Source: Candidatus Atribacteria bacterium (GTDB lineage: Bacteria; Atribacterota; JS1; SB-45; 34-128). Taken from it: a stretch of DNA of 64,000 nt. Under the pieces are notes generated by a model that saw only the letters and a program-made list of their open reading frames with translations, had not been told where the DNA came from and ran no database searches. Position numbers and translations under genes: made by a program. Numbering within the stretch: position 1 is the stretch's first letter; each line of letters starts with the position of its first letter. Shown here in pieces: positions 7,236 to 24,632 of this stretch. The stretch is from positions 4,203-68,202 of the forward strand of contig DMCY01000093.1 of the NCBI GenBank assembly GCA_003451675.1, written 5' to 3'.

Positions 7236-9040
7236 TCCCTCCCCTCCTTAATCAAGACATAATAGAGAGAATAAGCCAGATACCCACATCCGGAAGCAAA
7301 CCCGACTCCGGTCTTAGCTTCTCCTGAATCTTTATCAAAACTCTCCGCAAGAAGACCATAGTCCATATTCGCTTCTTTTAACCATTTCAGTGCCGCATTT
7401 GATAATAATGGATTTAGAATACTCCCGCATAGCCCCAGCCCTGAAGGGGTATTAGGATGGTGATCACAGGCCAATTCATTTATCCTGGCATTTTTAAAGT
7501 AATAAGGGTATTGAGAAGAATAATAATAATCTATAGTATTTTTAAATATGGGATCATCTTTATTTACAAATCTATAAAAACAAAGAGTGCCTAAACTCCC
7601 GGGAGGGTCATTATATAATCTGAAATTTTCCTTCCCATCAGTAGACCATAAAAATATTTTCTTCCCTTCTATTTCCTTAACTAAATATTTATAGATCCCT
7701 TTATGGATGTTTTCTATTTTTTGATTTATAAGCTGTGCCTTTTTTATCTCCCCTTTTTTTAATAAAATATCTCTCAAATTCTGCAACCCTCGCCATAGAA
7801 TAACATTATCAATAGTAACCAGGGGATAATCTGACGGGTCATCAGAAGGGAGTAAGAAAGTTTTATATAGACCGGTTCGGGGGTCATACTCTCTTTCTAC
7901 CCGTTCAAATACTTCTTCCAGAGCTCTTATTAACATCTCATCAAAAAGATGGTCTTCCAGGTTATCTAAAAGAATAAAATAACTGGCTGCTTCATCCAGC
8001 TCAAAACCCGGATACAAAACGGTACCATCAATATAATAGGCATGATCCCCGGGATTTTTGCTGTGCAGAAGAATCATTTCTCTTGCCAAATGTTGATATA
8101 ATTGAGGACAAACCAATTTGATAGCAGGAAGAGACCATAAAAAACAATCTCTTTCCCAAAATGCTCCGGAAACATAATAGCGGGGACTTCTCGAAGTTAA
8201 TGCCAGATATCTATCGCTCTCCATATCTTTGGCTATAGAGTAAAAATAATTAAAAAATAGATTTTCATTTAACCTGGTTTCTAATGCAGGGTCTTTAGGA
8301 TAGGGAATGGTTTTTTTCTTCAACCAATCCAGAAATTCATTGTAGATTCCGCTACACCCTTTTCTTTTCAAGTGAATAAGAGTAGCAGAAGCACCATCTG
8401 GGTCATAATTTACAGCTATATAAAAGCAATTTTTATTTTGGCAGGATATCTTTAAATTTAAGGTTTGTTTTCCTTTAAAGTCATCAACTTCGAAATCTTT
8501 ATCTCCGCCAAAGGCTAAGGCCAGCGAAACTTTTGAAGAAAAAATATTAGCTACCGGATTGCCCAGCCATTTATCTCTTTTTATTATCTTTTTAGTGTCT
8601 ATCTTGTGAGAATCGAATCGTAATAAACATACATCTTTTACATCAAAAAATAAAGAAATATCAATTTCTTCTGAACTTTCAAAGCTATAAATTAGCCCCT
8701 TTTCCTTAAGATCGGTAAATATTCTTCCGGTTACTCTTATCCCGCCTTTTAAAAAGTAGTCTAAACGGGGTAGATAATACTGCTCTTTAGAGACATTTAT
8801 CTTTTCTATTTCAATTTCTTTTCCTTCTTTGTAAAAATGTGGCGTAAATAAATTTGCTTCTCCTTGTAATTCTACCAAAGCTTTATTAGAAAGAGATACC
8901 ACATTTATATTTTTGATAGCACCATTTTGGCAATCAATGATAGGTATGCTCAGGTAATGATTCCCGGCATACAAAACTCGCTCATTCTTTACTATTTCTT
9001 TAGGCCTGGTAATAATCCTATTCATATCCTTCTTGTTCAA
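7232..9040 (-). CDS. Six-hairpin (alpha/alpha-6 barrel) glycosidase-like protein
   Basis: 602 residues. The N-terminal half is beta-rich, the C-terminal half is an all-helical toroid with the GH125/GH63/glycogen-debranching-like signature SGAFWERDCFLWSLPAI (around residue 293) and a later DEAASYFILLDNL block. These acidic positions are the usual catalytic area of inverting clan-GH-L-type enzymes. No signal peptide is seen, so it acts in the cytoplasm on an imported sugar. It is first in the tightly overlapping operon with the two nitrilase-like proteins and the GPH symporter. The family is assigned by motif only; substrate unknown. Confidence 0.65.
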   Translation of the reverse strand: MNKKDMNRIITRPKEIVKNERVLYAGNHYLSIPIIDCQNGAIKNINVVSLSNKALVELQGEANLFTPHFYKEGKEIEIEKINVSKEQYYLPRLDYFLKGGIRVTGRIFTDLKEKGLIYSFESSEEIDISLFFDVKDVCLLRFDSHKIDTKKIIKRDKWLGNPVANIFSSKVSLALAFGGDKDFEVDDFKGKQTLNLKISCQNKNCFYIAVNYDPDGASATLIHLKRKGCSGIYNEFLDWLKKKTIPYPKDPALETRLNENLFFNYFYSIAKDMESDRYLALTSRSPRYYVSGAFWERDCFLWSLPAIKLVCPQLYQHLAREMILLHSKNPGDHAYYIDGTVLYPGFELDEAASYFILLDNLEDHLFDEMLIRALEEVFERVEREYDPRTGLYKTFLLPSDDPSDYPLVTIDNVILWRGLQNLRDILLKKGEIKKAQLINQKIENIHKGIYKYLVKEIEGKKIFLWSTDGKENFRLYNDPPGSLGTLCFYRFVNKDDPIFKNTIDYYYSSQYPYYFKNARINELACDHHPNTPSGLGLCGSILNPLLSNAALKWLKEANMDYGLLAESFDKDSGEAKTGVGFASGCGYLAYSLYYVLIKEGRE

Positions 9041-9154
9041 TTTAAATTCCTTTTATATTCTGGTTCCTCAATAGCTGAAGCAGTCCCTTAAATTTCTCAT
9101 AATATAAACATTCTACATTCCCCACTAATTATCCTTCTTTTTTATCTCAAAAAC

Positions 9155-9182
9155 TAAAAAATCCGAATATTAATTCGGATTA
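9155..9182 (-). terminator. Rho-independent terminator after nagB
   Basis: On the minus strand, AATCCGAAT-TAAT-ATTCGGATT is followed by TTTTAGTTTTT. It lies about 100 bases past the nagB stop and ends the long minus-strand salvage transcript before the glycosidase gene. Confidence 0.75.
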
Positions 9183-9278
9183 TCAATAAAACGATCTATA
9201 AATATAGGAATAGGAAATATTTGGAAATGTCAACAAGGAGAGGCTGTATTTATATATTTATAATATTACTACTATCAA

Positions 9279-10040
9279 TCATATCTTTTCTGGATAGGAA
9301 AGCGAATTAGTTACTGTAGAAGATGGATAAATCTTTTTATCCACTATCAAAATCACATCATTATGGACTTGTAATAATGAAGCGGGGACTTCAGTAGCAA
9401 TATGTCCCGATGTAACTTTTAGAATTGGTTTTTTCTTCTCTGCCCCCCAGGCCATAAGAATAATTTTTTTTGATCTCATTATCGTTGCCATTCCCATAGT
9501 TATTGCTTTCTTGGGAACTTTATCTAAACTTTCGAAAAATCGGGAATTTGCTGTAATTGTATCATCAGAAAGTTGTATGACATGAGTTTTCGCTTCTAAA
9601 TTAATATCAGGTTCATTAAACCCTACATGACCATTTATCCCAATTCCAAGAATTTGTAAATCAATTCCTCCGACTTTCTCGATTTCTTCTTCGTAATTCA
9701 GACATTCCTGAACAGGATCTTTGGCATCACCTTTAGGTATATGGATGTTCTTTTCTTCAATGTTTACATAGTTAAAAAAATTCTCGTGCATATAGTAGTG
9801 ATAACTTTGTGGATGATCAGGAGATATTCCTAAATATTCATCAAGATTAAATGTTATCACCTGCGATAAATCTAAATCGCCCTCTTTATGCATTTTGACT
9901 AACTCTCTATACATCCCTTCGGGCGTACTTCCGGTAGCAAGACCTAACACAGTGTTCGGTTTATCTTTAATCTGCTTTGCAACCATTTTAGCTGCTAATT
10001 TACTCATCTCATCATATGAACTTATTGGTTTAATTTCCAT
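9279..10040 (-). CDS. nagB: Glucosamine-6-phosphate deaminase
   Basis: 253 residues, normal length for the short NagB form. Motifs seen: GLATGSTPEGMYRELV phosphate loop near 33-48, FNLDEYLGI with the catalytic Asp, and GIGINGHVGFNEP with the active histidine. It converts glucosamine-6-phosphate to fructose-6-phosphate and ammonia, the last step in feeding amino sugars into glycolysis. Its start overlaps the 3' end of nagA by 11 bases. It is the last gene of the salvage cluster, before a strong terminator. Confidence 0.96.
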   Translation of the reverse strand: MEIKPISSYDEMSKLAAKMVAKQIKDKPNTVLGLATGSTPEGMYRELVKMHKEGDLDLSQVITFNLDEYLGISPDHPQSYHYYMHENFFNYVNIEEKNIHIPKGDAKDPVQECLNYEEEIEKVGGIDLQILGIGINGHVGFNEPDINLEAKTHVIQLSDDTITANSRFFESLDKVPKKAITMGMATIMRSKKIILMAWGAEKKKPILKVTSGHIATEVPASLLQVHNDVILIVDKKIYPSSTVTNSLSYPEKI

Positions 10041-11205
10041 AATCTTTACTATAAATTACCTTTCCTTTTTTAATTGTATAAATAACATTAAAATTATCAT
10101 CTAAAACGACAATATCTGCCCGTTTACCAGGAGTCAAAGAGCCTCTGTATTTATCCAAACCTAAAAGTTGAGCAGGATTTAGTGAGGCCATTCTGATTGA
10201 TTTTTCTATACTTATACTCATTTTTTCTACCATATTTTTAACTGCCCTATTCATTGTTAAAGTACCCCCGGCCAGATTTCCAGACTCAAGGCGGGCTTCA
10301 CTATTTTTAACTATAACCTTCAAGCCTCCAAGGTCATATGTCCCATCCTGCAAACCAGCTGCTCTCATAGCATCTGTTATGAGAATTATTTTATCTACAC
10401 CCTTTGCCTTAACGAGTAAATTAACAATTGCCGGATGGACATGAATACAATCTGCAATTATCTCCGCAAATAGATTTTTTTCGGTTAGAATTGCTCCAAC
10501 AGTTCCCGGTTCTCTGTGATGAATTCCTTTCATCTGATTAAATATGTGGGAGGATGATTTTAATCCAAGTCTAATAGCAGAAATTATAGTTTCATAATCT
10601 GCAAAACTGTGTCCTGCAGAGGGAATAACTCCATTGTCATTAAGAAAAGATGTAAATTTAAAACCTGTATCCAGTTCGGGTGCATAAGTTACAATTTTTA
10701 TTAATCCACCTGATTCTTTAATAAATTTCTTCATTACTTCTACAGATGGAGGTATTATTAAATCTTCCCTTTGGGCACCTTTTTGCATTGTATTAATAAA
10801 GGGGCCTTCCAGATGGACTCCAAGTATTTCAGCACCTTCTTTCGGAGACTGCTTACTATACTCGCAAATATTATTAAGGGCTTTGAAGGTGTCTTTTATT
10901 GAAGATGTAACCGTTGTGACTAAAAAACCTGTACAGCCATTTTTTGCTTTAAATTTACTAATCTCCTTTAATGCCTCATATGTTGAATCCATGGTATCAT
11001 ATCCATTACCGCCATGACAGTGAATATCTATAAACCCTGGAACAATATATTCGCCTTTATAAATATTGTCATATGAAGTTAAATCTCTGCTCTCTCCCTC
11101 TCCAACATATTCAATTACACCATCATTAATTACAATAATACCGTTCTCTATTATTTTTAAGGGCGTTATAATTTTATTACCTAAAATAATCTTTTGTTTT
11201 TTCAA
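10030..11205 (-). CDS. nagA: N-acetylglucosamine-6-phosphate deacetylase
   Basis: 391 residues of the amidohydrolase superfamily. The metal motif HCHGGNGYDT lies near residue 62, HLEGPF in the middle, then GHSFADY, HIFNQMKGIHHREPG and the catalytic Asp in ITDAMRAAG. It removes acetate from GlcNAc-6-phosphate, the product of MurQ encoded upstream. It lies 26 bases downstream of the FAD dehydrogenase gene and overlaps nagB. Length and motifs are those of a standard active NagA. Confidence 0.96.
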   Translation of the reverse strand: MKKQKIILGNKIITPLKIIENGIIVINDGVIEYVGEGESRDLTSYDNIYKGEYIVPGFIDIHCHGGNGYDTMDSTYEALKEISKFKAKNGCTGFLVTTVTSSIKDTFKALNNICEYSKQSPKEGAEILGVHLEGPFINTMQKGAQREDLIIPPSVEVMKKFIKESGGLIKIVTYAPELDTGFKFTSFLNDNGVIPSAGHSFADYETIISAIRLGLKSSSHIFNQMKGIHHREPGTVGAILTEKNLFAEIIADCIHVHPAIVNLLVKAKGVDKIILITDAMRAAGLQDGTYDLGGLKVIVKNSEARLESGNLAGGTLTMNRAVKNMVEKMSISIEKSIRMASLNPAQLLGLDKYRGSLTPGKRADIVVLDDNFNVIYTIKKGKVIYSKDYGN

Positions 11206-11231
11206 CTTTAATTTTACCTCGTGATATTTTT

Positions 11232-12644
11232 TTAGAATAGTTTTCCGGGATTTAAAATTAAGTTGGGATCAAGGGCTTTTTTGATATTTTTCATCATTTC
11301 AATCTGTGCCGGCTCTAATGCCATTGACATATACGTATTACGTTTACTTCCTATGCCATGTTCACCGCTAATTGTCCCTCCAAGTTCAATTGCTGCTTTA
11401 TATAACTCCGGAAGTAATGCATTTAACTTTTCATACCACTCATTCATTAAAAATTTTGGATTTTTTATAGGGGTGGGATGCAAATTCCCATCGCCCGCAT
11501 GACCATAGCATGGAATAGGTACATCATATTTCTCTGAAAGCTCTTTTATCTTTGTCATAAATTTTGGTATTTCTGATATAGGAACTACAATATCTTCTAT
11601 GCTTTGGTGGGGGCTTATAAGTTTCCAGGCCTCTGCGATATTTTGTCTTATCTTCCATATCCTCTCTGATGTAGTAGCATTATCTGCAACATAAACTTCA
11701 ATTGCTCCATTTTCCGTACATAAATTTCCTATTATTTCATATTGTCCTTCCAATTCCTTTTTACTGTTACCATCAAGTTCTATCAAAAGCATTGCACCTG
11801 CTTTTTCAAAAGGTATTTTCTCATTTAGGTATTCACAAGATGTCTTAAATGATAATTCATCCATAAATTCTATTGAGGTAGGTATAATTCTACCAAAGGT
11901 CATTATCTTTGGTACAAGCTTAATTGCACTTTCTATGTCTTTAAATAAAACAAGTAAGTTTACATTCGCTTGTGGAAGAGGTATTAGTTTTATATATATT
12001 TTTGTAAATATTCCAAGAGTACCTTCAGAACCTACCATAAGATGTATGAGATCATACCCCGTTACATCTTTCATTCTCTTGCCGCCGAGATGTACAATTT
12101 CACCCGTAGGTGTCACTACTTCAAGGCCATATATATATCTCCCTGTCACACCGTACTTAACAGCCCTTCCGCCTCCGGCATTTTCTGCAACATTCCCGCC
12201 TATATAACATGTCTCAACACTCATAGGATACCCTGCATAAAAAAGTCCATCATCTTTTACAAGATTATTTATATCATTCGTGACAACACCCGGTTCCACA
12301 ACAGCTATAAAATTTTTCTTATCTATTTCGATAATTCTATTCATCTTTTCAACAGATAACACAATACCGCCATTTACAGGTATTGCCCCACCTGATAGAC
12401 CGCTTCCTGCCCCTCTCGGAGTTACCGGTATTTTATATTTATTGGCAAGCTTCATAATTTTTGATATTTCTTTTGCAGTAGATGGTTTTACTACCACTTC
12501 GGGCATATGAGCATAAGATTTTTCTGCAACCTCATCATGGGAATACTGTTCCATAGCCTCAATATCATCATAAATTACATTTTTAGCACCCAATATCTTA
12601 ATAAGTTCATCAATAATTTCGGAAGTAACTTTCTTGTATATCAT
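11232..12644 (-). CDS. FAD-linked D-2-hydroxyacid (probable D-lactate) dehydrogenase, GlcD type
   Basis: 470 residues. The N-terminal FAD_binding_4 domain contains TPRGAGSGLSGGAIP (about 76-90). The C-terminal FAD-oxidase domain has PCYGHAGDGNLHP, GGTISGEHGIG and an NPGKLF end. The start codon overlaps the etfA stop by four bases, so it is the partner dehydrogenase of this EtfAB pair. The order etfB-etfA-dehydrogenase equals the lct operon of acetogens, where the complex drives lactate oxidation with NAD+ by electron confurcation with ferredoxin. Sitting between murQ/anmK and nagA, the likely substrate is D-lactate cut from N-acetylmuramate; that is inference. Confidence 0.88.
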   Translation of the reverse strand: MIYKKVTSEIIDELIKILGAKNVIYDDIEAMEQYSHDEVAEKSYAHMPEVVVKPSTAKEISKIMKLANKYKIPVTPRGAGSGLSGGAIPVNGGIVLSVEKMNRIIEIDKKNFIAVVEPGVVTNDINNLVKDDGLFYAGYPMSVETCYIGGNVAENAGGGRAVKYGVTGRYIYGLEVVTPTGEIVHLGGKRMKDVTGYDLIHLMVGSEGTLGIFTKIYIKLIPLPQANVNLLVLFKDIESAIKLVPKIMTFGRIIPTSIEFMDELSFKTSCEYLNEKIPFEKAGAMLLIELDGNSKKELEGQYEIIGNLCTENGAIEVYVADNATTSERIWKIRQNIAEAWKLISPHQSIEDIVVPISEIPKFMTKIKELSEKYDVPIPCYGHAGDGNLHPTPIKNPKFLMNEWYEKLNALLPELYKAAIELGGTISGEHGIGSKRNTYMSMALEPAQIEMMKNIKKALDPNLILNPGKLF

Positions 12645-13648
12645 TTTTGAGCCTCTTTTGCCTTGTATTCTTTAAGTCTTTCAATTAAAAGTGGAACTAC
12701 CTCGTGTAAATCACCTACAATACCAAGATCTGCAAGTTTAAATATCTGTGCATCAGGTTCTTTATTGATGGCAATAATATTTTCCGATGTTTGCATCCCT
12801 GCGATATGCTGAACAGACCCGGATATACCGTTAGCAATATATAATGAGGGTGAAATAGTCTTACCGCTTAACCCTATCTGGTGGGGATATGTTTTCCAAC
12901 CTCTATCAACAACATCACGGGATGCACCGACCGCACCACCTAAGATCTCAGCCAATTCATCTATCATCTTAAATTTTTCTTTTTTCCCAATACCTCTGCC
13001 AGCAGACACAACTACTTTTGCATCCTGCACAGCGACCTGTTGAGATTCATCTTTTATAAATTTTATAAATTTTGCTCTCGATTTAAAAATCTCATCACTA
13101 TATTTTTTATATATTACTTCTCCTTTTCTGTTTTTATCAGGAAGAGCCGATTTCGTTGAATGCGGTCTTACTGTTGCCATCTGCGGTTTTGTATTTGGCG
13201 TTTTTATTGTTGCAAGAATATTTCCGCCTATTGCCGGTCGTGTTTGCAAAAGATTGTTTGTGCTCTCCTCTATATCAAGAACAGTACAATCCGCTGTAAG
13301 CCCCGTCTTTTTCTTAATTGCAATATAGGGCATTAGTGTCCTGCCCAATGTTGTAGCTGCGGCTATAAATATATGCGGATTATATTCATCTAAAAGTGAA
13401 ACTAAAATTCTTGCATATGGTTCAACGAGAAAATTTTCCAAATGTTTATTATCAACAACGAATACTTTATCTGCACCTCTTGAAATTAGTTCATCTATAT
13501 CCTCTTTTTTTATATTATAACCCAATATTACTGAAGTAAGCAGAGAATTTAACTTTTCTGTAAGCTTTTTCCCCCTGTTTAATAGTTCAAACGAAACTTC
13601 GCTTAATACGCCATGCCTTTGCTCTGCAAATGTCCACACTTCAGCCAT
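12641..13648 (-). CDS. etfA: Electron transfer flavoprotein alpha subunit
   Basis: About 335 residues. The open frame begins seven codons earlier, but an AGGAGG box lies inside that extension, 6-7 nt before the ATG at 13648 (MAEVWTFAEQ), so I use that start. The C-terminal FAD domain shows VVSAGRGIG, GGAVGASRDVVD, LYIANGISGSVQHIAGM and ADLGIVGDLHEVVP, the normal EtfA signatures. It lacks the N-terminal ferredoxin domain present in the LctC subunit of acetogens. Together with EtfB it passes electrons between the GlcD-like dehydrogenase and NAD+/ferredoxin. Confidence 0.93.
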   Translation of the reverse strand: MAEVWTFAEQRHGVLSEVSFELLNRGKKLTEKLNSLLTSVILGYNIKKEDIDELISRGADKVFVVDNKHLENFLVEPYARILVSLLDEYNPHIFIAAATTLGRTLMPYIAIKKKTGLTADCTVLDIEESTNNLLQTRPAIGGNILATIKTPNTKPQMATVRPHSTKSALPDKNRKGEVIYKKYSDEIFKSRAKFIKFIKDESQQVAVQDAKVVVSAGRGIGKKEKFKMIDELAEILGGAVGASRDVVDRGWKTYPHQIGLSGKTISPSLYIANGISGSVQHIAGMQTSENIIAINKEPDAQIFKLADLGIVGDLHEVVPLLIERLKEYKAKEAQK

Positions 13649-13665
13649 CTTTATCCTCCTCATAT

Positions 13666-14463
13666 TCATATCAATTCTTTTAAAATAAGATAATTCACTA
13701 TTTTATCTATTGCTTTTTCTAAATCATCTTCATCTTTGGCTATAAATTTTTCGCCTTCTCTTGATATCTTTTGAGCAAATATTTTAACTACCCTTGTAGG
13801 AGATCCTTTAAGGCCCAAACATTCATCTTGCGCATCAATATTTTCAGGTCCCCATATAGGTATTTTTATTTCCTTTGCCTTTAGCTTGCCTTTCAGAGTC
13901 GGCAATCTTGGATTATTTATTTCTTTTACAACTGTCACCACAGTCGGTAATTTTATATCTAAAAGTTCATAGCCTTCCTCTACAAGCCTTTTTACCTGAA
14001 TCAAATCTTTTTCCAATCTGGCTATTTCACTTGTAAATGTAGATAATGGCAAATTAAGAAATGATGCTATACCCGGACCCACTTGTGCTGTATCACCATC
14101 TGTAGCTCTTTCGCCACACAATATAAGATCAAAATTCCCCATCTTGTTTATGCATTGTGATAACACATAAGAGGTAACCCAGGTATCAGATCCAGCAAAT
14201 TTCCTATTCGATAGAAGTATTCCATTATCACACCCCATCGCAATTGCTTCTTTTATGGCCTCAATAGCTTTACCGGGGCCCATAGATATAACAGTAACTT
14301 CGCCGCAGAATTGTTCTTTTAGTCTTATTGCTTCTTCGATAGCATATAAATCAAGAGGATTTATAATACTTTCAACCCCTTCTCTAATCATCGTCCCTGT
14401 TTCTTCGTCCATTTTTACATTACTCGTTTCAGGTACTTGTTTTATCGGTACAATAATCTTCAT
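13666..14463 (-). CDS. etfB: Electron transfer flavoprotein beta subunit
   Basis: 265 residues, starting MKIIVPIKQVPETSNVKMD. The segment CGERATDGDTAQVGPGIASF near residue 116-135 is the nucleotide/FAD-binding loop and resembles the version found in bifurcating ETFs rather than the AMP-binding mitochondrial type; a motif-based comparison would be needed to confirm. It is upstream of and nearly contiguous with etfA and glcD. The complex is soluble and cytoplasmic. No separate ferredoxin gene is adjacent. Confidence 0.93.
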   Translation of the reverse strand: MKIIVPIKQVPETSNVKMDEETGTMIREGVESIINPLDLYAIEEAIRLKEQFCGEVTVISMGPGKAIEAIKEAIAMGCDNGILLSNRKFAGSDTWVTSYVLSQCINKMGNFDLILCGERATDGDTAQVGPGIASFLNLPLSTFTSEIARLEKDLIQVKRLVEEGYELLDIKLPTVVTVVKEINNPRLPTLKGKLKAKEIKIPIWGPENIDAQDECLGLKGSPTRVVKIFAQKISREGEKFIAKDEDDLEKAIDKIVNYLILKELI

Positions 14464-14534
14464 TTACTATATTTTCTCCCTCAAATAAAATTAACTGATT
14501 TTCCGAGCTTTAGATATTTATTTTATAAACATCC

Positions 14535-15722
14535 TCACCATTTTAAATGATTATAAAAATTTCTACCTGGTGTAATATCGCCTAAAACAACATGTTTTTT
14601 AGCTTTGGTAACCCGGGGAACATTGTTGGCTATTCCTTTCATAGTTTGATAAGCCAGAACTGCAAAAGCAATTGCTTCTTTAGCCTCACTGGAAAATCCC
14701 AACTCTTCCTGAGTTAAAACATTTATCTGCCTATTAGTAAGTAGTTTATTACAGTAATTTTTAATCATTTCCAACAGAGTCAAATTAAAACTTCCTCCCC
14801 CGCCGATAATAATTTGATCAATCTTACCTTTAATAAATCTTCGATAAGAATCAACTATTGAATAAGCTGTAAACGCAGTAGCAGTAGCAAGAATATCAGC
14901 TGCGCTTAATCCTATTTTTTGCCCTTGGGAAATAATTTCTCTGGCATATAAAAGACCAAAAACTTCTCGGCCGGTTGTCTTAGGAGCCTTTTGGCAAATA
15001 AAAGGATGTTTCATCAACTCTTCTAAGAATTCTTCAGAAACTTTGCCTTCTTTTGCCCACTTGCCATCCTGATCATGTTTTAACCGACCATTGCTTAATA
15101 CAGAAACTATCCCATCAAGCAACATATTCCCCGGACCGGTATCTGTACCTTCAATCTCAGTAAAATTAGCTTTTGCAGGAAGATAAGTATAATTAGCAAT
15201 TCCACCGATATTTTGCAATATTCGAGAATATTTTGAATCACTATATAAAATATAATCAACATAAGGCACTAAAGGGGCTCCTTCTCCACCCCCTGCCACA
15301 TCCCTAATCCGAAAATTGCTTACTGTTGTAATCCCTGTTCTCTCAGTTATTACTCCTCCTGCCCCAATCTGCAAAGTAGAAATAAATTTTTTTTTCCTTA
15401 CATCGTGATAAATTGTTTGCCCATGAGAACCAATTAAATCAACCTCTTCTAAACTTATGCCTGCCTTTTTTACAACCTGCAAAGCTGCATCAGCCAATAA
15501 TTCTCCTAATTTAAAATTCAACCTGCAAATCTTATCAACGGTCCCAAGTTTTTTATCACAGCAATTTAAAATTTCTTCATATACTGCTCGGCTATATTTT
15601 AAAGTGATAAATTCCACTAATTCAACTTCTAAACAATGCTTTTCTCCTATTTTAACTAAAGCTGCATCAATTCCATCCAAGGAAGTACCAGACATTAACC
15701 CAACTACAAGTTTATAGCTCAT
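14535..15722 (-). CDS. anmK: Anhydro-N-acetylmuramic acid kinase
   Basis: About 395 residues. I use the ATG at 15722 (MSYKLVVGLMSGTSLDGID) because a GGAGGTGAG box sits seven nt before it; the frame extends five codons further. The kinase motifs are GLMSGTSLDGID for ATP phosphate binding, GIANYTYL, EGTDTGPGNMLLDG and IIGGGGSFN. It hydrates and phosphorylates 1,6-anhydro-MurNAc to MurNAc-6-phosphate, the substrate of MurQ. Its presence means that cell-wall turnover products made by lytic transglycosylases are being recycled. It lies between the ETF genes and a serine hydrolase of the same pathway. Confidence 0.96.
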   Translation of the reverse strand: MSYKLVVGLMSGTSLDGIDAALVKIGEKHCLEVELVEFITLKYSRAVYEEILNCCDKKLGTVDKICRLNFKLGELLADAALQVVKKAGISLEEVDLIGSHGQTIYHDVRKKKFISTLQIGAGGVITERTGITTVSNFRIRDVAGGGEGAPLVPYVDYILYSDSKYSRILQNIGGIANYTYLPAKANFTEIEGTDTGPGNMLLDGIVSVLSNGRLKHDQDGKWAKEGKVSEEFLEELMKHPFICQKAPKTTGREVFGLLYAREIISQGQKIGLSAADILATATAFTAYSIVDSYRRFIKGKIDQIIIGGGGSFNLTLLEMIKNYCNKLLTNRQINVLTQEELGFSSEAKEAIAFAVLAYQTMKGIANNVPRVTKAKKHVVLGDITPGRNFYNHLKW

Positions 15723-15807
15723 CCTTCTCACCTCCAAAAAAACCGAAATTTATCTATTATTTAAGCCTTTTACGCATACATCTCTCTCTTATTAAATTTG
15801 CCTTATT

Positions 15808-16893
15808 CTAAGAATTACAAAATAAACGTACAACTAAATTATGTAACAAGGGGCGAAATGAAATAATTTTTCTATTCTCTCTTGTTGGATGAACCCGATT
15901 AGTTAATAAGGCCACTCCTATCTTTAATTCGGGATCAATCCAAAGAGATGTCCCTGTAAAACCGGTATGTCCAAAAGCCGCTTCACTAAAAAATACCCCG
16001 CCGGAAGAATGAGAATTTTTAATCAAATCCCACCCCAGGCCTCGGTGATTACCCAAATTAGAAGTCCAATCCTTCCTCATCAACTCTACTGATTTAAAAG
16101 ATAATATCTTGACACCCTTATGCTTCCCATCGTTTAACAACATTTGTAAAAATTTAACCAAATCATCAATTACAGAAAAAAGTCCTGCATGCCCGCTAAC
16201 TCCATCGAAAGAAAATGCATTCTCATCATGCACTTCTCCAATCATCATTCTATCCCGCCACCCACACATCTCAGTGGCAGCATAATCTTTACTTTTAGTA
16301 CAAGGTAAATTTTTTAGAGGATTAAAAACGGTCATCTTCATCCCTAATGGTTGAAAAATATGTCGCTCGGCATATTCGCCCAATCTCTTATCAGTTACTC
16401 GCCAGATCAAATCTCCCAAAAGAATAAAATTCAAATCACTGTATATAACTTTTCCCCCCGTTTTAACTTCTAAAGGACTTTCTAAAACATGTTTAATTTT
16501 TTCTTTATAATTAAGACCTTGATCCCACAGACGAATAATCGCTGGAAATCCTGAGGTATGAGTTAATAGATGAAAAATGCTTATCTCTTTTTTTTCACTG
16601 GGAAGCTCAGGATATAAATGCTTAATATAATCCCAAAGATTGATCTTCCCTTTTTCAATCAATTGCATAACAGCAATGGTGGTAGCCATGACTTTGGTTA
16701 AGGAAGCTAAATCAAAAATGGTGTTCTCTTTCATTTTAATCTTATCTGGCTCCAATTGGGCATAACCAAAACTATCTTGATATAAAACTCTTTTATCATT
16801 CACTACTGTTAAAACAGCACCAGGAAAAACTCCTTTTTTCAAGCCGAACTGAATAAACCGGGCTACTTTTTCTTTTTTATCCTGTTCAATCAT
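15808..16893 (-). CDS. Beta-lactamase-family serine hydrolase, possible muropeptide amidase (AmiE-like)
   Basis: 361 residues, class C beta-lactamase/penicillin-binding fold. The catalytic SxxK is SLTK (S64-K67), the second motif is YSDLN (Y151) and the third is the HTGFTG segment near the C-terminus. No signal peptide is visible, so a cytoplasmic location is likely. In Bacillus subtilis the murQ-murR-murP cluster carries a protein of this family (AmiE) that cuts the peptide from MurNAc. The position here next to anmK supports the same job, acting on peptides imported by the adjacent ABC system. A general esterase cannot be excluded. Confidence 0.75.
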   Translation of the reverse strand: MIEQDKKEKVARFIQFGLKKGVFPGAVLTVVNDKRVLYQDSFGYAQLEPDKIKMKENTIFDLASLTKVMATTIAVMQLIEKGKINLWDYIKHLYPELPSEKKEISIFHLLTHTSGFPAIIRLWDQGLNYKEKIKHVLESPLEVKTGGKVIYSDLNFILLGDLIWRVTDKRLGEYAERHIFQPLGMKMTVFNPLKNLPCTKSKDYAATEMCGWRDRMMIGEVHDENAFSFDGVSGHAGLFSVIDDLVKFLQMLLNDGKHKGVKILSFKSVELMRKDWTSNLGNHRGLGWDLIKNSHSSGGVFFSEAAFGHTGFTGTSLWIDPELKIGVALLTNRVHPTRENRKIISFRPLLHNLVVRLFCNS

Positions 16894-17198
16894 TTCTAAT
16901 TTTCTCCTACAATCTACTTAATTGTTGATTTTCCTGTAATTTTTAATAATTATAAATACTTTTTCGTGCTATTTTTTCTCATATAATATACCAAGAAAGC
17001 AATATATTTTCTAAGATGATAGCAATACATCTGTATCGACAGTCACAATTGGATATTTTATTTCTTTCTTTACCTTATCTGCATATTTTAAGTTTTCTTA
17101 AACCTTTTTTCTATCTTAATCTCAACTTTAATGCCTAACATTAAATAAACCGAATTTCAAAGACTTGAGGATATAAATTAGTGAGTACTACAATATTG
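16894..17198. other. Gap of about 300 bases, no gene seen
   Basis: AT-rich DNA between the permease gene dppC and the serine hydrolase gene. I see no long ORF, clear terminator or riboswitch. It could hold a promoter for the downstream part of the cluster. Confidence 0.4.
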
Positions 17199-18041
17199 CT
17201 ATCTCACATTTTTTAATCTTGGGTCCAGAATATCTCTCAAACCATCTCCTAACAAATTAAAACCAATAACTATTAAAAAAATAGTTATTCCAGGAAATAT
17301 AGCACTCCATGGAGCAATAATAATAAACCTTCTAGCATCACCCAACATACTCCCCCAAGAAGGAAATGGAGGTTGTACGCCTAATCCCAAAAAACTTAAG
17401 GACGATTCCAGAAGAATTCCTAGAGAAAGACATAAAGAAATTTGAACTATAAGAGAAGGTATAATATTAGGTAAAAGATGTTTAAATAAAATACGATTTC
17501 TAGTTCCTCCAATAGCTAAAGCTGCCTCTACAAATTCCAAATTCTTTATAGCTAAAATAGCTGCTCGGCTTATTCTAGCAAACTGAGGAATATAAACAAT
17601 GCCTATGGCAATTATTACATTATAAGTATTTTCTCCAAGAACTCCCATAATAAATATAGCTAGAAGAAGGGGAGGGAAAGAAAAAATAATATCATTTATT
17701 CTCATTATAATATTATCGTAAATTCCTCCTAAAAATCCTGCCCAAATACCCATTAAAATTCCAAATGTAGCTGCTATAAGTGTTGCACTAAAACTGACAC
17801 TAAGAGATATCCTGCTACCATATATAATACGTGATAAAACATCTCTTCCAAATTGGTCAGTTCCCATAAAATGCCTTGTTTTAAAGCATGGGGGCTGCAA
17901 CATCTCTTCAAAATTCATCTCCAAAGGGTCGAAAGGTGTCCAAAAAATGCCCATAATTGTAATAAAACCATAAAATAAAATAATTAAAAGACCTACAAAG
18001 GCTACATGATTTTTATTTATCTTTAAGTAAAAAAGTTTCAT
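17199..18041 (-). CDS. Peptide ABC transporter permease, DppC/OppC family
   Basis: 280 residues with an N-terminal anchor and five further hydrophobic helices. The ATPase-contacting EAA loop reads EAALAIGGTRNRILFKHLLP, and the N-terminal MGTDQFGRDVLSRIIYGSR segment is diagnostic of OppC/DppC permeases. It pairs with the DppB-like protein encoded 12 bases upstream to form the membrane channel. In this cluster the likely cargo is murein peptide or muropeptide. No ABC ATPase gene follows, so a shared ATPase must be supplied from another locus. Confidence 0.93.
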   Translation of the reverse strand: MKLFYLKINKNHVAFVGLLIILFYGFITIMGIFWTPFDPLEMNFEEMLQPPCFKTRHFMGTDQFGRDVLSRIIYGSRISLSVSFSATLIAATFGILMGIWAGFLGGIYDNIIMRINDIIFSFPPLLLAIFIMGVLGENTYNVIIAIGIVYIPQFARISRAAILAIKNLEFVEAALAIGGTRNRILFKHLLPNIIPSLIVQISLCLSLGILLESSLSFLGLGVQPPFPSWGSMLGDARRFIIIAPWSAIFPGITIFLIVIGFNLLGDGLRDILDPRLKNVR

Positions 18042-18052
18042 TTTTCCCCTTC

Positions 18053-19003
18053 TTATTCATATCTAATTCGAGGATCTATATATACATAAAGGATATCAGT
18101 AAAAAGATTTATAAGGACAAAAAATACAGTAGTAATCAATACAATTCCTTGCAAAAGGGGGTAATCTCTCTGATATATGGCATAAAGAACCAATCTCCCC
18201 ATTCCTGGTAAAGCAAAAACTTCTTCTATTACAATGGCTCCTCCCATTAAATATCCTGCATTAAAACCCAATACAGTGATTACAGGCAAAAGGGCATTTT
18301 TCAAGACATGTTTTGCCAGTATATTTTTTTCAGAAACTCCTTTAGATCTTGCAGTTCTAATATAATCCATTTGGGTAACTTCTAATATATTATATCTCGT
18401 AAATCTCATAATTACTGCTGCTAAACCTCCTCCTAAAGCCAGAGAAGGAAAAAACATCATCTTTAAATTAAGAATAGAATTTTTTGATAAAGAAATATAG
18501 GTTCCCATAGGAATCCACCCTTTAAAGGAAGAAAAAAACATCACAAATAAAATTGCTAAAAAAAATTGAGGAATAGAAAGTCCTAAAAGTCCTGCAATCC
18601 TTATAACCAAGCCCATAAATGGATTTTGTTTCCTGCTCGAGAGAATGCCAAGAGGTATCCCTATTAGGACTGAAAAACATAAAGCAAAAATAGTAAGCTC
18701 TAAAGTTAAAGGAAGGCGACTTAAAATATCAGAAAGAACGGGACGACTAGTTCTTAAGGAACAACCAAAGTCACCTCTGATAATTCTAGAAAGCCACTCT
18801 CCGTAAAGAACAAGCACAGGTTTATCTTCTCCAAAAATTGCTTTTAACTCCTCCATCTGTTTAGGTGTTGTCTCTACCTGCGTTCCCAAATATACTTCTA
18901 AAGCACTACCAGGAATAAGCCGAACCATAAAGAATATTAAAATAGAAACTCCTAAAATAACAAAAACGAGACTGATAAATCTTTTTAAAATATATCCATA
19001 CAT
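18053..19003 (-). CDS. Peptide ABC transporter permease, DppB/OppB family
   Basis: 316 residues, six membrane helices. The N-terminus MYGYILKRFISLVFVILGVS and the loop YIRTARSKGVSEKNILAKHV are typical of DppB/OppB proteins. It follows the substrate-binding protein gene, separated from it by a strong hairpin that probably lowers permease expression relative to the binding protein. Confidence 0.93.
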   Translation of the reverse strand: MYGYILKRFISLVFVILGVSILIFFMVRLIPGSALEVYLGTQVETTPKQMEELKAIFGEDKPVLVLYGEWLSRIIRGDFGCSLRTSRPVLSDILSRLPLTLELTIFALCFSVLIGIPLGILSSRKQNPFMGLVIRIAGLLGLSIPQFFLAILFVMFFSSFKGWIPMGTYISLSKNSILNLKMMFFPSLALGGGLAAVIMRFTRYNILEVTQMDYIRTARSKGVSEKNILAKHVLKNALLPVITVLGFNAGYLMGGAIVIEEVFALPGMGRLVLYAIYQRDYPLLQGIVLITTVFFVLINLFTDILYVYIDPRIRYE

Positions 19004-19020
19004 AAATTACTCCTTAAAAG

Positions 19021-19052
19021 GAAAAGGAGGACTCACAAAGAGTCCTCCTTTT
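19021..19052 (-). terminator. Intra-operon hairpin between binding protein and permeases
   Basis: On the minus strand AAGGAGGACTC-TTTGT-GAGTCCTCCTT forms an 11-bp stem followed by TTCCTTTT. Placed just after the solute-binding gene, it fits a partial terminator or mRNA-stabilising stem, common in ABC operons where the binding protein is needed in excess. Confidence 0.75.
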
Positions 19053-19057
19053 ATAAC

Positions 19058-20578
19058 TTATTTCTCCAGCCAAGTTTGGGAAAGATACTGGATGGAACCA
19101 TTCCCTATTTGTCTAAAATTTTTCACATTTGGACTTAAAACTTGAGTCTCTAAGGGAACATAAAGAAAGATTACGGGCATTTTTTCTGAAAGTAAAACTT
19201 GAATTTTATCATATATAGGCTTTCTATCCTCAAATTTTACAAGCCCTCTTCCTTCATCTAACAAATTATCCACTTCTTCATCTTTAAATAACCAATTATT
19301 TACGCCACCCGTACTGTGGAGACTACGATAAAGGAATCTATCAGGCTCAGGAGATCCTCCTCTAAGTTCTACGATAGAATCAAAATCTCTCTTCACCCAA
19401 CGATTAATATATATTCCCCATTCTACTACCTCTAGCTCAGGAATAAGACCAATTTCCTTTAACTGACTCTGAATTACTTGAGCTACCGCTAATCCACCCT
19501 CATACGAATTAGAAGTAACAATATTAAAGGAAAAACCATCGGGATACCCTGCCTCAATAAGAAGCTCTCTAGCTTTCTTTAAATTCCGCTTAGAAAAAGG
19601 AAGTTCCTCTAAGGGTTTTGCCCACTTTTTTACAGAAGCAGAGAGAGGCCCTGAAGGCTGTGCCATTCCAAATTCAGCTGCAGTTACTATTTCATCTCTA
19701 TCTATTGCCAAAGCAATTGCTTCTCTTACTCTTACATCATTAAAAGGTTTTCGGGTATTATTAAATCCAAACGTCCTTAAGTTAAGTCCTGGAATTTGCA
19801 TTACTACAAGATTCGGATCTTTTTTGGCTTGCAATATTATACTTCCTTCATTAATAGTTGCCATATCAAGACTTCCCGATTTAATTCCAGCAAGAAGCGA
19901 TGTTTGCTCTGGAATAACTCTAAAAATTACAGCATCAAGATATGGAAGCCCCTTTTCGAAATAATTAGGATTTTTTACAAGTTTCATATAATTATCAGGA
20001 ATCCATTCTTCTAATTTAAAAGGTCCTGTTCCCACTGCATTCCTTTGAAGGTTCCCATATTTTTCCACTTCTTCCTTTGGAACTATGGAACAATTTTTGG
20101 AAGCAAGCCCATTTAAAAAAGAGGCTAAGGGAGACGAGAGTTTTATCCTTATAGTATATTTGTTAATTGGTTCAATGTTTGATATGGGAGCTATATATGA
20201 GCGACCGGGAGAAGTCGTCTCAGGATCAAGTATTCTTTCTAAGCTAAATTTTACATCATCAGCAGTAAGTTCTCTTCCATTATGAAATTTTACACCCTTC
20301 TTTAAATGAAAAATGTAAGTTAGACTATCTGGGATTTCCCAAGAATCTGCTAAGTCTGGTACAATATTAAGGTTATAATCCAGTTTTACCAATGTATTAT
20401 AAAGAAGGTCTATACGTCGAAATGAAGAGAAAGCAGTAACTATGTGAGGATCTAACCCCACCACCTCTTGGTCCACACCAATAACAAGGGTACCCCCTTT
20501 TGATTCTGCTAACGCAAAAGGGGTTAATAAAATTACAATTAACATTAAACTAATTAGCAAAGTAAAAAAAATTTTCAT
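19058..20578 (-). CDS. Extracellular solute-binding protein, family 5 (peptide/muropeptide)
   Basis: 506 residues. A Sec signal peptide (about 1-25, hydrophobic core LLISLMLIVILLTPFALA, ending near AES) precedes a family 5 domain with DPHIVTAFSSFRR, the typical YHFKKGVKFHNGR-like block (FHLKKGVKFHNGRELTADDV) and the D-R-D-E-I-V helix region. No lipobox cysteine is seen. It captures oligopeptides or muropeptides outside the membrane for the DppBC permeases encoded next. Context, not sequence, suggests cell-wall peptides. Confidence 0.9.
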   Translation of the reverse strand: MKIFFTLLISLMLIVILLTPFALAESKGGTLVIGVDQEVVGLDPHIVTAFSSFRRIDLLYNTLVKLDYNLNIVPDLADSWEIPDSLTYIFHLKKGVKFHNGRELTADDVKFSLERILDPETTSPGRSYIAPISNIEPINKYTIRIKLSSPLASFLNGLASKNCSIVPKEEVEKYGNLQRNAVGTGPFKLEEWIPDNYMKLVKNPNYFEKGLPYLDAVIFRVIPEQTSLLAGIKSGSLDMATINEGSIILQAKKDPNLVVMQIPGLNLRTFGFNNTRKPFNDVRVREAIALAIDRDEIVTAAEFGMAQPSGPLSASVKKWAKPLEELPFSKRNLKKARELLIEAGYPDGFSFNIVTSNSYEGGLAVAQVIQSQLKEIGLIPELEVVEWGIYINRWVKRDFDSIVELRGGSPEPDRFLYRSLHSTGGVNNWLFKDEEVDNLLDEGRGLVKFEDRKPIYDKIQVLLSEKMPVIFLYVPLETQVLSPNVKNFRQIGNGSIQYLSQTWLEK

Positions 20579-20867
20579 TTTTCCCTCCTTTAAACTTTTT
20601 TTCTAATTTTTAGTATTTAGTTTTCATATTTTTTCCATAGAGACATCCGAAAAACTTATAAGATTTTTGATATCATCTTATCAATACCTCCTCTCTCTTA
20701 ATATTTCCTCAATTATCTTAGTTAAAACTTCTGACTCCACCCTCCTCTAATTCATTTAGTGAGATGCTAAATATACTTGATTTTTCTCAATAGATAAATA
20801 TCATATTTATGTAGATACCCCAGGCATACCTGTAATATTCTACCCTTCTGGTTAACAAAGAATATTC

Positions 20868-21365
20868 TTAAACCAATTTAGCCATATAAATATCGTTAAT
20901 ATAGCAACCATTCACAAATAAAGAATGTTCTTTTACCCCTTCCACTTTAAAATCCATTTTTTTGTATAGCGCTTGGCCAGCTTTGTTGTTTTCCATTACA
21001 GTTAATTCCAAACGATGAATTTTATTTTGAATAGCCCACTTTTCCAATTCGATAAACAGTTTTGTTCCAATACCCTGTCCTACATAATCCTGTAATATCC
21101 CAATGCTTATGTGCACACAATGCTTGACTCTGCTAATATCACGTCCTAAGGCTAAAAGATAACCTACTAGCTGTCTATCTACATCTACAACTAATAAGGT
21201 TGATTTTTTATTTTTGGTTAAATCCCGAATAATTTTTCTCTGCTGGTCAATGGATATATTTAACTCCCCGGGTTCATAGAGCCTGAATTCCGTTTCCCTA
21301 TCAAGCTTTTTACATAAATTTAAATAATTTTTTGCATCTTCCGTTCTTATCATTCTTATAAGCAT
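20868..21365 (-). CDS. GNAT-family N-acetyltransferase
   Basis: 165 residues with the acetyl-CoA binding motif A (DYVGQGIGTKLFIELEKW, about 114-131) and the motif B end NNKAGQALYKKMDFKVEG. It resembles RimI/SpeG-type acetyltransferases. It is placed between murQ and the peptide-binding protein, so a role on amino sugars, peptides or an antibiotic-like compound is possible, but the acceptor cannot be deduced. The flanking gaps (about 290 bases each side) show it may have its own promoter. Confidence 0.88.
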   Translation of the reverse strand: MLIRMIRTEDAKNYLNLCKKLDRETEFRLYEPGELNISIDQQRKIIRDLTKNKKSTLLVVDVDRQLVGYLLALGRDISRVKHCVHISIGILQDYVGQGIGTKLFIELEKWAIQNKIHRLELTVMENNKAGQALYKKMDFKVEGVKEHSLFVNGCYINDIYMAKLV

Positions 21366-21650
21366 TAAATACTACCCCCTTTACCTTTCAATAGAAATAC
21401 TAACTTGAACATTCCCATTCATCAAAAGACATTAGTAGTACTCGGTAAGCTATTTGAAAAATTATATCTAGATTACCTTTAGAAAATTCGTCTCTTACTA
21501 TAATAAAAGCTATAGCTTCGTTATATTACTCGAAAAATCATACTTTTCAACAAAAGTAAACCTCTGTTTATTTTTTTCAAACTCTCAATTATCGCAAATT
21601 AATTTATTAATCATCATAAACTAATAACTAATATTTTCTTCTCTACTATC

Positions 21651-22550
21651 TCAATCAATTATCTTAACCAAAACTTCTTCCTTTTCTTTCAACAGTTTCA
21701 ATGCCTTCTCCAGAGTAACTCCTTTTTGATACATTACAATAGCCGCTTTTATATTAAAATCAGCTTTTTTCAAATATTCTGCCGTTGTTTCGTAATTGGC
21801 ATTAGTAATTTCCATAAAGATATTTTTAGCCCTCTCTCTCAGTTTGCAATTAGAAGGATTAAGATCAACCATTAAGTTTGAATAAACCTTGCCTAATTTA
21901 ATCATCACTGTAGTAGATATCATGTTTAAGACCATCTTCTGGGCAGTCCCCGCTTTCATCCTGGTGGATCCTGTAATTACTTCAGGTCCTACAATAGGAA
22001 CTATTGCCACTTCTACTTTTTTTTCTAAAAGTGAACCAATGATACAAACAAGTCCAATAATAAGGGCTCCATGTTTTTTAGCTTCTTCTATAGCTCCTAG
22101 CACATAAGGAGTATTCCCACTAGCAGCTATTCCAATTACACTATCTAAATCATTTATGCTATATTTTTTTATTGCTTTTGCCCCCATATCAAAATCATCT
22201 TCTGTTTCTTCCTGTGAAGCAAACATAGCCTTTTCCCCTCCTGCTAAAATCCCTAGCACTTTACCCTTTTCCACACTAAAAGTGGGTCCACATTCTATTG
22301 CATCTAATATCCCCAGCCGGCCACTGGTTCCTGCCCCTACATAAAACAATCGACCCCCTTTTCTCATTCTATCAGCAATCATATCAACTGCTTTTTTAAT
22401 AGCAGGTATCTCCGCTCTAACAGCCTCGGCTACTTTGGCATCTTCCTGATTAATTAAACGTATTATTTCCTCTGTGTCCATCTGATCAATTTTCATACTA
22501 ACAGGATTTCTTTCTTCGGTAATTATAGAAATTTTATTATTTAGTACCAT
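21651..22550 (-). CDS. murQ: N-acetylmuramic acid 6-phosphate etherase
   Basis: 299 residues with the SIS fold. The sugar-phosphate loop and catalytic region read VGAGTSGRLGILDAIECGPTF (about 96-116), and GPEVITGSTRMKAGTAQKM is the second signature. It splits MurNAc-6-phosphate into GlcNAc-6-phosphate and D-lactate. GlcNAc-6-phosphate is then handled by NagA and NagB encoded downstream. The gene lies 43 bases after its probable regulator. The sequence is complete and typical. Confidence 0.96.
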   Translation of the reverse strand: MVLNNKISIITEERNPVSMKIDQMDTEEIIRLINQEDAKVAEAVRAEIPAIKKAVDMIADRMRKGGRLFYVGAGTSGRLGILDAIECGPTFSVEKGKVLGILAGGEKAMFASQEETEDDFDMGAKAIKKYSINDLDSVIGIAASGNTPYVLGAIEEAKKHGALIIGLVCIIGSLLEKKVEVAIVPIVGPEVITGSTRMKAGTAQKMVLNMISTTVMIKLGKVYSNLMVDLNPSNCKLRERAKNIFMEITNANYETTAEYLKKADFNIKAAIVMYQKGVTLEKALKLLKEKEEVLVKIID

Positions 22551-22593
22551 ATTATCTCCTCACTGTTAACTTTTTTATGTATTCATAATTTAA

Positions 22594-23466
22594 TTACAAT
22601 TTGCTTTCTTGCATAACCAATCTCGTTTTAGTTAAGGCCTCCAGGGTTTTATCATATTCAGTAGTAGCTACTCCTAAAAACAATACATCAATTACAGCCA
22701 ATTGAGCCATCCTCGAAGCTAAGGCACTTCCTCTAAAAGGTGTCTCTTGGGATGAAGTAAGCAAAGTAATATCTGCTAATTTAGTGATAGGGGAACCTAA
22801 ATTAGATGTAATAGCAATAATTTTTGCCATTGTGTTCTTAACTATTTTAAGTGACTCAATTAATTCTTTAGTCCTTCCAGAATCGGATATGGCAATTACT
22901 ACGTCTTCCTTGGTTAATAAAGCTCCTATTGTCTTCTGCTTGTGATTATCTATTAAAGCCTCAGATATATAATTAATCCTTTTAAATTTCAAATCTGCAT
23001 CCTTTGCTACAATTCCTGAAGCCCCAAAACCAAAGAAATATAACCTGCGAGCTTTTAAAATCATCTCAATACCGGTTTTTATATCAGTATTTTGTAGTAA
23101 TTCTTTTGTATTATTCAATGATTTACTGTAAATTTGAAAGATCTTTTTAATAATGATATTAATGTCGTCATTGGCCTCAATTTCGCCATAAATATGCTCT
23201 CTGTGTTCTTTTTCCCCTGCTTGTGCCAAGATAATTTTTAGCTCCTGGTAACCTGAATAACCAATATGCTGACAAAATTTAACTATTGTCGCCTCACTTA
23301 CCCCCACATTCTCGGCCATCTTTGTAATAGAAAGATGAATAACTTCATTAATATTATTTAATATATAATCAGCCACTCTTCTTTCCGCTGGCTTTAAAGA
23401 AGTAAGCTGGCTTTTAATCCTTAAAATACCATTGGGCAAACTGTCTTTACCCTGTATTTGTATCAT
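22594..23466 (-). CDS. RpiR-family regulator, MurR-like
   Basis: 290 residues. An N-terminal RpiR helix-turn-helix (about 14-80, containing ENVGVSEATIVKFCQHIGYSGYQ) is followed by a SIS sugar-phosphate-binding domain (about 120-260, FFGFGASGIVAKDADLK). It should bind MurNAc-6-phosphate or a related sugar phosphate and control the cluster. It is the first gene of the murQ unit, which is the usual arrangement. Whether it represses or activates cannot be told. Confidence 0.9.
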   Translation of the reverse strand: MIQIQGKDSLPNGILRIKSQLTSLKPAERRVADYILNNINEVIHLSITKMAENVGVSEATIVKFCQHIGYSGYQELKIILAQAGEKEHREHIYGEIEANDDINIIIKKIFQIYSKSLNNTKELLQNTDIKTGIEMILKARRLYFFGFGASGIVAKDADLKFKRINYISEALIDNHKQKTIGALLTKEDVVIAISDSGRTKELIESLKIVKNTMAKIIAITSNLGSPITKLADITLLTSSQETPFRGSALASRMAQLAVIDVLFLGVATTEYDKTLEALTKTRLVMQESKL

Positions 23467-23786
23467 CCTTATTCACATCCTTATTTTATTTTTACCTTCT
23501 TTTTTTATTATTATAATTATAATACCACATAAAAGTAAAAAAATCTTCTTTTTTTTATAAATATAATAAAATAATTTTATTATTATTTAATTTAACCTCA
23601 ATTTACCATTTTCTAAGAAAATTATTATGGTCTTGCAGAGAAATAAAAATTAAGAAGAAAACTGAAATGGTGAAGTCTTTAATTAAAGGATTGAAGATAT
23701 CTAAATTAAATCTGGTACCATTTTATTGATAGAAATCAAACAAGCAGTACGAAAAGCAGTAGAAGTAGTAAGGATGATATTTCACA
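23467..23786. other. AT-rich upstream region of the murR-murQ unit
   Basis: About 320 bases without a credible ORF. It contains the inverted repeat at 23564-23582 and is the likely promoter region of the minus-strand salvage cluster. Confidence 0.5.
23564..23582. promoter_or_regulatory. Perfect 9-bp inverted repeat upstream of rpiR-like gene, possible operator
   Basis: TAATAAAAT-A-ATTTTATTA is a perfect inverted repeat with a one-base centre, about 100 bases upstream of the regulator gene. RpiR proteins bind such symmetric sites. The DNA is so AT-rich that chance symmetry is quite possible. Confidence 0.3.
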
Positions 23787-24605: not shown

Positions 24606-24632
24606 GAAATAAAAAACAATATTAATAAGTCC

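Follow-up and report, generated by a model that had tools for sequence, protein, structure and literature searches.

A MurNAc salvage gene cluster in an Atribacterota genome that probably carries its own unit for D-lactate disposal

The DNA analysed here (the window) is a stretch of 64,000 nucleotides from a Candidatus Atribacteria bacterium (contig DMCY01000093.1, positions 4,203 to 68,202), in which a cluster of thirteen minus-strand genes between positions 9279 and 23466 joins genes for the salvage of N-acetylmuramic acid (MurNAc) to an etfB-etfA-glcD module encoding an electron-transferring flavoprotein (ETF) and an FAD-dependent dehydrogenase. The genes are listed below in the order of transcription, each with the model scores or residues behind its assignment.

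22594..23466, minus strand: rpiR, RpiR/MurR-family regulator with HTH_6 and SIS domains (Pfam PF01418 and PF01380, over cut-off)
21651..22550, minus strand: murQ, MurNAc-6-phosphate etherase, D-lactate-releasing (TIGR00274, 359.7 bits, cut-off 302)
20868..21365, minus strand: GNAT acetyltransferase, given no role here (15 GNAT-type NCBIfam matches, every one under cut-off)
19058..20578, minus strand: family-5 solute-binding protein, SBP (PF00496, 331.9 bits)
18053..19003, minus strand: dppB-type permease (PF00528, PF19300)
17199..18041, minus strand: dppC-type permease (PF00528, PF12911)
15808..16893, minus strand: serine hydrolase of the beta-lactamase/PBP4B/AmiE kind (PF00144, 212 bits)
14535..15737, minus strand: anmK, anhydro-MurNAc kinase (NF007142 and NF007148, over cut-off)
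13666..14463, minus strand: etfB, bifurcating type (DGDTAQVGP at residues 122-130, RKFAG at 87-91, SPT at 221-223)
12641..13669, minus strand: etfA, lacking a ferredoxin domain at the N terminus (LctC Arg205 and Asp189 correspond in the alignment to its Arg144 and Asp127)
11232..12644, minus strand: glcD, FAD D-lactate dehydrogenase type, LctD-like (highest-scoring PDB entry 7QH2, chain C, at 363 bits)
10030..11205, minus strand: nagA, N-acetylglucosamine (GlcNAc)-6-phosphate deacetylase (TIGR00221, 377 bits, cut-off 225.65)
9279..10040, minus strand: nagB, glucosamine-6-phosphate deaminase (TIGR00502, 309.6 bits, cut-off 236.9)
9160..9181, minus strand: terminator-like stem 3' of nagB, where the unit may end (pattern scan only)

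Open reading frames (ORFs), NCBIfam and Pfam confirmed the extent and names that a preliminary description had given to these thirteen genes, and the etfB-etfA-glcD order is, as it had stated, that of lactate (lct) operons. The MurNAc salvage set is represented by MurQ, the anhydro-MurNAc kinase, NagA and NagB, all above curated NCBIfam cut-offs (455 and 451.3 bits against 435 and 387 for AnmK). EtfB, EtfA, GlcD, the GNAT protein, the hydrolase and RpiR matched their expected families with every listed NCBIfam model under cut-off (the best 25 of 44 families for the hydrolase and the best 25 of 26 for RpiR), as were the MurR-, HexR- and AlsR-specific models for the RpiR protein, and Pfam domains were confirmed for 10 of the 13 proteins. 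The run hydrolase-anmK-etfB-etfA-glcD-nagA-nagB is closely packed, with gaps of 70, 71, -4, -4, 26 and -11 nt, and wide gaps of 285-305 nt separate murQ from the GNAT gene, the GNAT gene from that of the SBP, and dppC from the hydrolase gene. Since these wide gaps suggest several transcription units, the description of the genes as one cluster stands, and a single operon is unproven; a single transcript of all thirteen genes is probably not formed, and co-expression is a prediction. Pattern scans of the region gave 12 terminator-like sites against 8.5 (sd 3.2) in shuffled sequences and 57 promoter-like sites against 68.2, and a repeat search brought out no clear operator shared by rpiR and the anmK-etf unit.

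The serine hydrolase matched the broad beta-lactamase Pfam family, scored 229.2 bits against the PBP4B model PRK03642 (cut-off 385 bits) and is 46% identical to a hydrolase adjoining NamZ and NagZ in another locus (L043); it is likely an N-acetylmuramyl-L-alanine amidase. A second genome of the phylum (G025, locus L083) has SBP-dppB-dppC-anmK in identical order, with identities of 54, 59, 55 and 38%, respectively, which favours a tie between the transporter and anhydro-MurNAc, and on this synteny SBP-DppB-DppC is predicted to import muropeptides. No ABC ATPase was found by NCBIfam and Pfam among the thirteen genes. NagZ, NamZ, a BadF-type kinase, LctP and LarA, searched with one query each (LctP and LarA at E 1e-15), had no match in the 64-kb window, and GlcNAc-anhydro-MurNAc fragments would thus need NagZ from elsewhere.

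Compared with ten ETF structures, EtfB scored 192-215 bits against five that we take to be of the bifurcating kind and 62-108 bits against five others. The gene order of Acetobacterium woodii, presumably lctB-lctC-lctD, matches that of the module. EtfB carries the beta-FAD motif DGDTAQVGP, the NAD motif RxFxG and the SPT anchor, all three features of bifurcating ETFs as defined in PMC9232219. In A. woodii, mutation of these EtfB segments abolished or lowered coupled activity (PMC9232219). EtfA Arg144 aligns with LctC Arg205, an arginine kept in all 21 sequences compared, and GlcD retains LctD His377, His384 and Glu422 (metal), His423 (base) and Arg328 as H382, H389, E428, H429 and R333. The window module thus resembles A. 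woodii LctBCD (PDB 7QH2) in its beta-FAD, NAD and SPT motifs, the EtfA arginine, the metal ligands and the base, but differs in three pocket residues, in the ferredoxin domain that only the A. woodii EtfA bears, and in that no permease or racemase for lactate was found in the 64 kb.

The closest relatives of the module are found in GntR-LctP-etfB-etfA-glcD-LarA operons of Thermoanaerobacterium, Tepidanaerobacter and a third genome (G063), with identities to the window of 81-83% for GlcD, 73-80% for EtfA and 70-74% for EtfB. Their EtfA ORFs (334-337 aa) likewise lack the ferredoxin domain. GlcD relatives were present in 8 of 24 genomes in the order of Caldanaerobacter G065 (E <=1e-120) and in 6 of 26 in the class of Tepidanaerobacter G066 (E <=1e-150). 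LarA adjoins the module in six of these 14 genomes, five of them also with LctP (the contig of the sixth, G062, begins at etfB); three further genomes have LctP, three (G064, G065 and G075) have the module in mur/nag surroundings, and G089 and G102, on contigs of 11.2 and 8.7 kb, show neither neighbourhood. LctP and LarA exceeded their NCBIfam cut-offs in both lactate operons tested, and neither was found in the mur-linked stretches examined (8 to ~37 kb each). Because the operons are named 'lct' from those very genes, the one informative point is that the mur group lacks them, as predicted if MurQ makes D-lactate inside the cell. The lactate operons have genes to take up external lactate, to racemise it, or both, whereas the neighbours of the window module serve MurNAc salvage. 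The LctP and LarA neighbours make glycolate an unlikely substrate for the close kin, and D-lactate is the predicted substrate of the window GlcD.

We consider it probable, from the sequence evidence, that this MurNAc salvage cluster carries its own unit for D-lactate disposal. Anhydro-MurNAc peptides, imported or internally recycled, would lose their peptide through the AmiE-like hydrolase, AnmK would phosphorylate the sugar to MurNAc 6-phosphate, and MurQ would cleave this to GlcNAc 6-phosphate and D-lactate, with NagA and NagB carrying the sugar on to fructose 6-phosphate. The D-lactate would in turn be oxidised by GlcD with the bifurcating-type EtfAB, giving pyruvate; electron confurcation is the most likely mode (D-lactate + reduced ferredoxin + 2 NAD+ -> pyruvate + oxidised ferredoxin + 2 NADH), and the loop would close if pyruvate:ferredoxin oxidoreductase re-reduces ferredoxin. 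The lactyl side chain of every MurNAc unit is a source of carbon and electrons, but oxidising lactate with NAD+ as the sole acceptor is energetically strongly unfavourable (PMC9232219), which raises the question of what fermenting anaerobes do with this side chain. RT761, an isolate of the window's phylum, has Rnf (PMC7736352).

Linkage of mur genes to the module recurs outside Atribacterota. A Clostridia metagenome-assembled genome (G064) has, on one contig, rpiR-murQ-AmiE-like-NamZ-NagZ-BadF-type kinase-anmK, four further genes, then etfB-etfA-glcD, an Opp-type transporter and nagA. In a Thermoanaerobacter genome (G075) murQ and glcD start 20.4 kb apart on one contig, with genes for an AmiE-like protein, NamZ, NagZ, the kinase and AnmK in between and nagA beyond. 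Caldanaerobacter subterraneus (G065) has nagA directly after the module and murQ on separate contigs; a second murQ of this species, broken into two short ORFs, lies at L045 4212-5119. Thermoanaerobacter sp. A7A (G069) has murQ, then decayed pieces of etfB and glcD (L046 11496-12212), then nagA, and seems to have lost the module. A further Bacillota genome (G189) carries murQ-anmK, two short ORFs and etfB-etfA-glcD on one strand, its GlcD being 52% identical to that of the window; as a recurrence we find this linkage convincing. GlcD is present in 5 of 12 genomes of the order of G189, and conservation of the linkage across that order was not borne out: no mur genes were seen near GlcD in G305 and G281 (20 and 18 kb) or in G255 (contig C94) and G329 (13 and 6.3 kb). 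In G305 and G281 the gene for GlcD (80% identical) adjoins one of the LarA family, and rpiR-nagZ-murQ lies on a different contig, which makes the joining in G189 look recent.

In a wider draw, GlcD was detected in 36 of 398 genomes of the phylum of G065 (E <=1e-150, at most four GlcD candidates scored per genome). MurQ, sought in 51 GlcD-bearing genomes (these 36, eight from the order and class surveys and seven of 13 from Atribacterota), was present in 25. The starts of murQ and glcD lay no more than 22 kb apart in five of the 25, against 0.55 expected under random placement (Poisson 3e-4), a figure weakened by a limit chosen after the distances were known and by the sister relationship of G064 and G075, which are not independent.

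The module and the mur genes of the window differ in history. In a concatenated EtfB-EtfA-GlcD tree of 21 rows, where three of the phylum rows are long branches, the window falls inside a Thermoanaerobacter-Thermoanaerobacterium-Tepidanaerobacter clade (support 100/100) and nearer the lactate-operon type (82/88); a single clade of the window and the mur-type modules was not rejected (p 0.09). A clade uniting the window with the seven phylum copies in the tree was rejected (p-AU 8.3e-5), and with it vertical descent of the module inside the phylum. GlcD is 79-83% identical to the Thermoanaerobacter-type group, near the 82-92% found within that group, and the mur genes give far lower values: 52-56% for MurQ (own range 71-92%), 45-48% for NagA (74-92%) and 45-46% for the hydrolase (73-83%). 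From this disparity different histories follow, and hence separate recruitments are likely. Single transfer of the whole cluster from a Caldanaerobacter/Thermoanaerobacter type is likewise disfavoured (GlcD 79-80% against MurQ 54-56%, NagA 45-48% and hydrolase 45-46%). The window lineage is thus likely, if not proven, to have taken a lactate-operon module into its MurNAc cluster separately from Caldanaerobacter/Thermoanaerobacter. Chances appear about even that a confurcating D-lactate dehydrogenase has been fitted onto MurNAc salvage at least three times separately in fermenting anaerobes, with the lactyl ether as a self-contained energy substrate needing neither lactate uptake nor racemisation.

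Among the 120 proteins listed for an aminotransferase flanking the cluster, the six that bear an organism name all belong to Candidatus Atribacteria or Caldatribacteriota, in line with a place of the window in Atribacterota. The nearest genome (G001, 81% complete) is colinear with the window and lacks positions 9026-24632 (15.6 kb, part of a glycoside hydrolase (GH) gene included), the flanks, of 79-89% DNA identity, meeting ~70 bases apart on its contig C71. Searches of G001 for GlcD and AnmK were empty, the DNA comparison covering the window outside 14001-20499, and gain in the window cannot be told from loss in G001. Identity to G001 is 79% over 27341-28364 and nearly 100% from 28385 on, a switch outside the cluster that may mark either a recombination event among related genomes or a chimeric assembly. 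A contig from another metagenome (L013), filed as Candidatus Omnitrophota and probably a misbinned Atribacterota contig, repeats glcD-nagA-nagB-GH, glcD by its end, with 82.5-92% protein identity.

Several observations weigh against a lactate-disposing salvage cluster. About 7 kb, spanning the wide gaps, separate murQ from etfB. Within the window's phylum the linkage was not seen again in the genomes tested: murQ was absent from all seven genomes tested of the 13 GlcD-bearing Atribacterota, AnmK occurred in just 1 of 50 genomes, and anmK and glcD of G025 sit on different contigs. Two of the five pairs within 22 kb, those of G374 and G255, were not accepted as convincing linkage, since unrelated genes separate murQ and glcD on the one contig that holds both. 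The co-occurrence whose lack would have refuted the preliminary description was found in Caldanaerobacter/Thermoanaerobacter mur/nag clusters and beside murQ-anmK in G189, and the description is not refuted on this point. The GlcD pocket departs from LctD at three positions (L332->A337, E344->I349, Y386->T391); the lct-operon kin have the same Ala and Thr but Leu at 349. Three mur-linked Bacillota rows show KxFxG and DGDTGQVGP in place of the window's motifs. EtfA (342 aa) starts late, its residue 13 aligning to LctC residue 76, and a C..C..C...C motif was not found in it. Removal of the ferredoxin domain abolishes confurcation in A. woodii, but CarCDE still bifurcates without it and Bcd-EtfAB has none (PMC9232219), so that confurcation is likely, not settled; of the confurcating type proposed earlier, the EtfB and EtfA motifs stood and the domain required in A. 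woodii did not.

That missing domain would also suit an ETF acting as a plain two-electron carrier, passing electrons from D-lactate to another acceptor without confurcation as in Fusobacterium Ldh-ETF-Bcd, and a canonical ETF does serve D-lactate oxidation in F. nucleatum (PMC12630350). Retention in EtfB of the NAD motif and of the beta-FAD motif, the latter stated to be absent from non-bifurcating ETFs, together with the lack of an acyl-CoA dehydrogenase among the thirteen genes, makes this unlikely, although it is the strongest of the alternatives. Arrival of the module as a passenger, whether on mobile DNA, by recombination or as an assembly error, and with no functional tie to MurNAc salvage, overlaps the other alternatives and seems to us somewhat less probable: an IS200-like transposase adjoins the cluster, the G001 flanks join without it and the identity switch lies nearby, but that switch is 4.9 kb beyond the cluster, L013 repeats part of the arrangement in another metagenome and similar linkage occurs in other genomes. 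Least probable, in our view, is a GlcD acting on another 2-hydroxyacid, such as glycolate or hydroxyglutarate, and placed in the cluster by coincidence. The top NCBIfam model for GlcD is indeed glycolate oxidase (TIGR00387, 439.8 bits), no equivalog cut-off is reached (567.9 bits for this model) and the pocket differs from that of LctD, but kin of 81-83% identity adjoin lactate permease and racemase genes and separate lineages show the mur linkage.

The components of the proposed D-lactate route are known singly. D-lactate release by MurQ is established (PMC5061867, PMC3022706), and many anaerobes have GlcD-EtfAB lactate operons (PMC5910564). The E. coli murQ operon and B. subtilis murQ-murR-murP-amiE-nagZ-ybbC share MurQ, a MurR-type regulator and an AmiE/PBP4B-like hydrolase with the window; no lactate oxidation genes are described for them in the available part of PMC5061867, and the window adds anmK, nagA, nagB and etfBA-glcD. 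Mycobacteria with oxygen are reported to use the lactate part of MurNAc by a MurQ-free route, and lactate builds up in C. glutamicum engineered to carry MurQ (PMC6572805, PMC6165865). The anaerobe Fidelibacter multiformis IA91 lives on muropeptides, uses D-lactate and is stated to convert MurNAc 6-phosphate to GlcNAc 6-phosphate and D-lactate, the latter being oxidised to pyruvate by a D-lactate dehydrogenase (PMC11652737). Three GlcD relatives of 67% identity among the matches listed are named Neomarinimicrobiota or Marinimicrobia, and the Fidelibacter route may be served by the same kind of enzyme. The earlier claim that the link was new therefore falls for the step from MurNAc 6-phosphate through D-lactate to a dehydrogenase; the open-licence literature searched gave no report joining murQ to an ETF-type dehydrogenase or to electron bifurcation, and newness can hold only for this gene-cluster link, a new and recurrent combination of known pieces. 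The link offers a testable route for anoxic life on dead cell walls, of interest for the uncultured Atribacterota, and it supplies a marker for genome searches, etfBA-glcD beside murQ/anmK without lctP/larA.

Some minor features of the locus and its relatives were also recorded. The transposase (PF01797) lies at 24023-24523, on the border of the segment that G001 lacks. A short open fragment that follows it, upstream of rpiR (23787-24044), looked by eye like the end of an NlpC/P60 protein, a reading dropped after Pfam returned no match even at E 10. The genes yhaM-tldD-pmbA flank the window cluster, and in a genome of the order of G001 (G022, L078 3159-10179) a phylum-type etfB-etfA-glcD directly follows the same three genes, though the window module belongs to another lineage. 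A 24-nt direct repeat (88%) at 20709-20732 and 21655-21678 places a copy resembling the murQ end in the GNAT-SBP gap, perhaps as a trace of duplication or by chance. Short motifs at ~33183-33224 and 38160-38218 recur widely on both strands of G001, in the manner of dispersed repeats.

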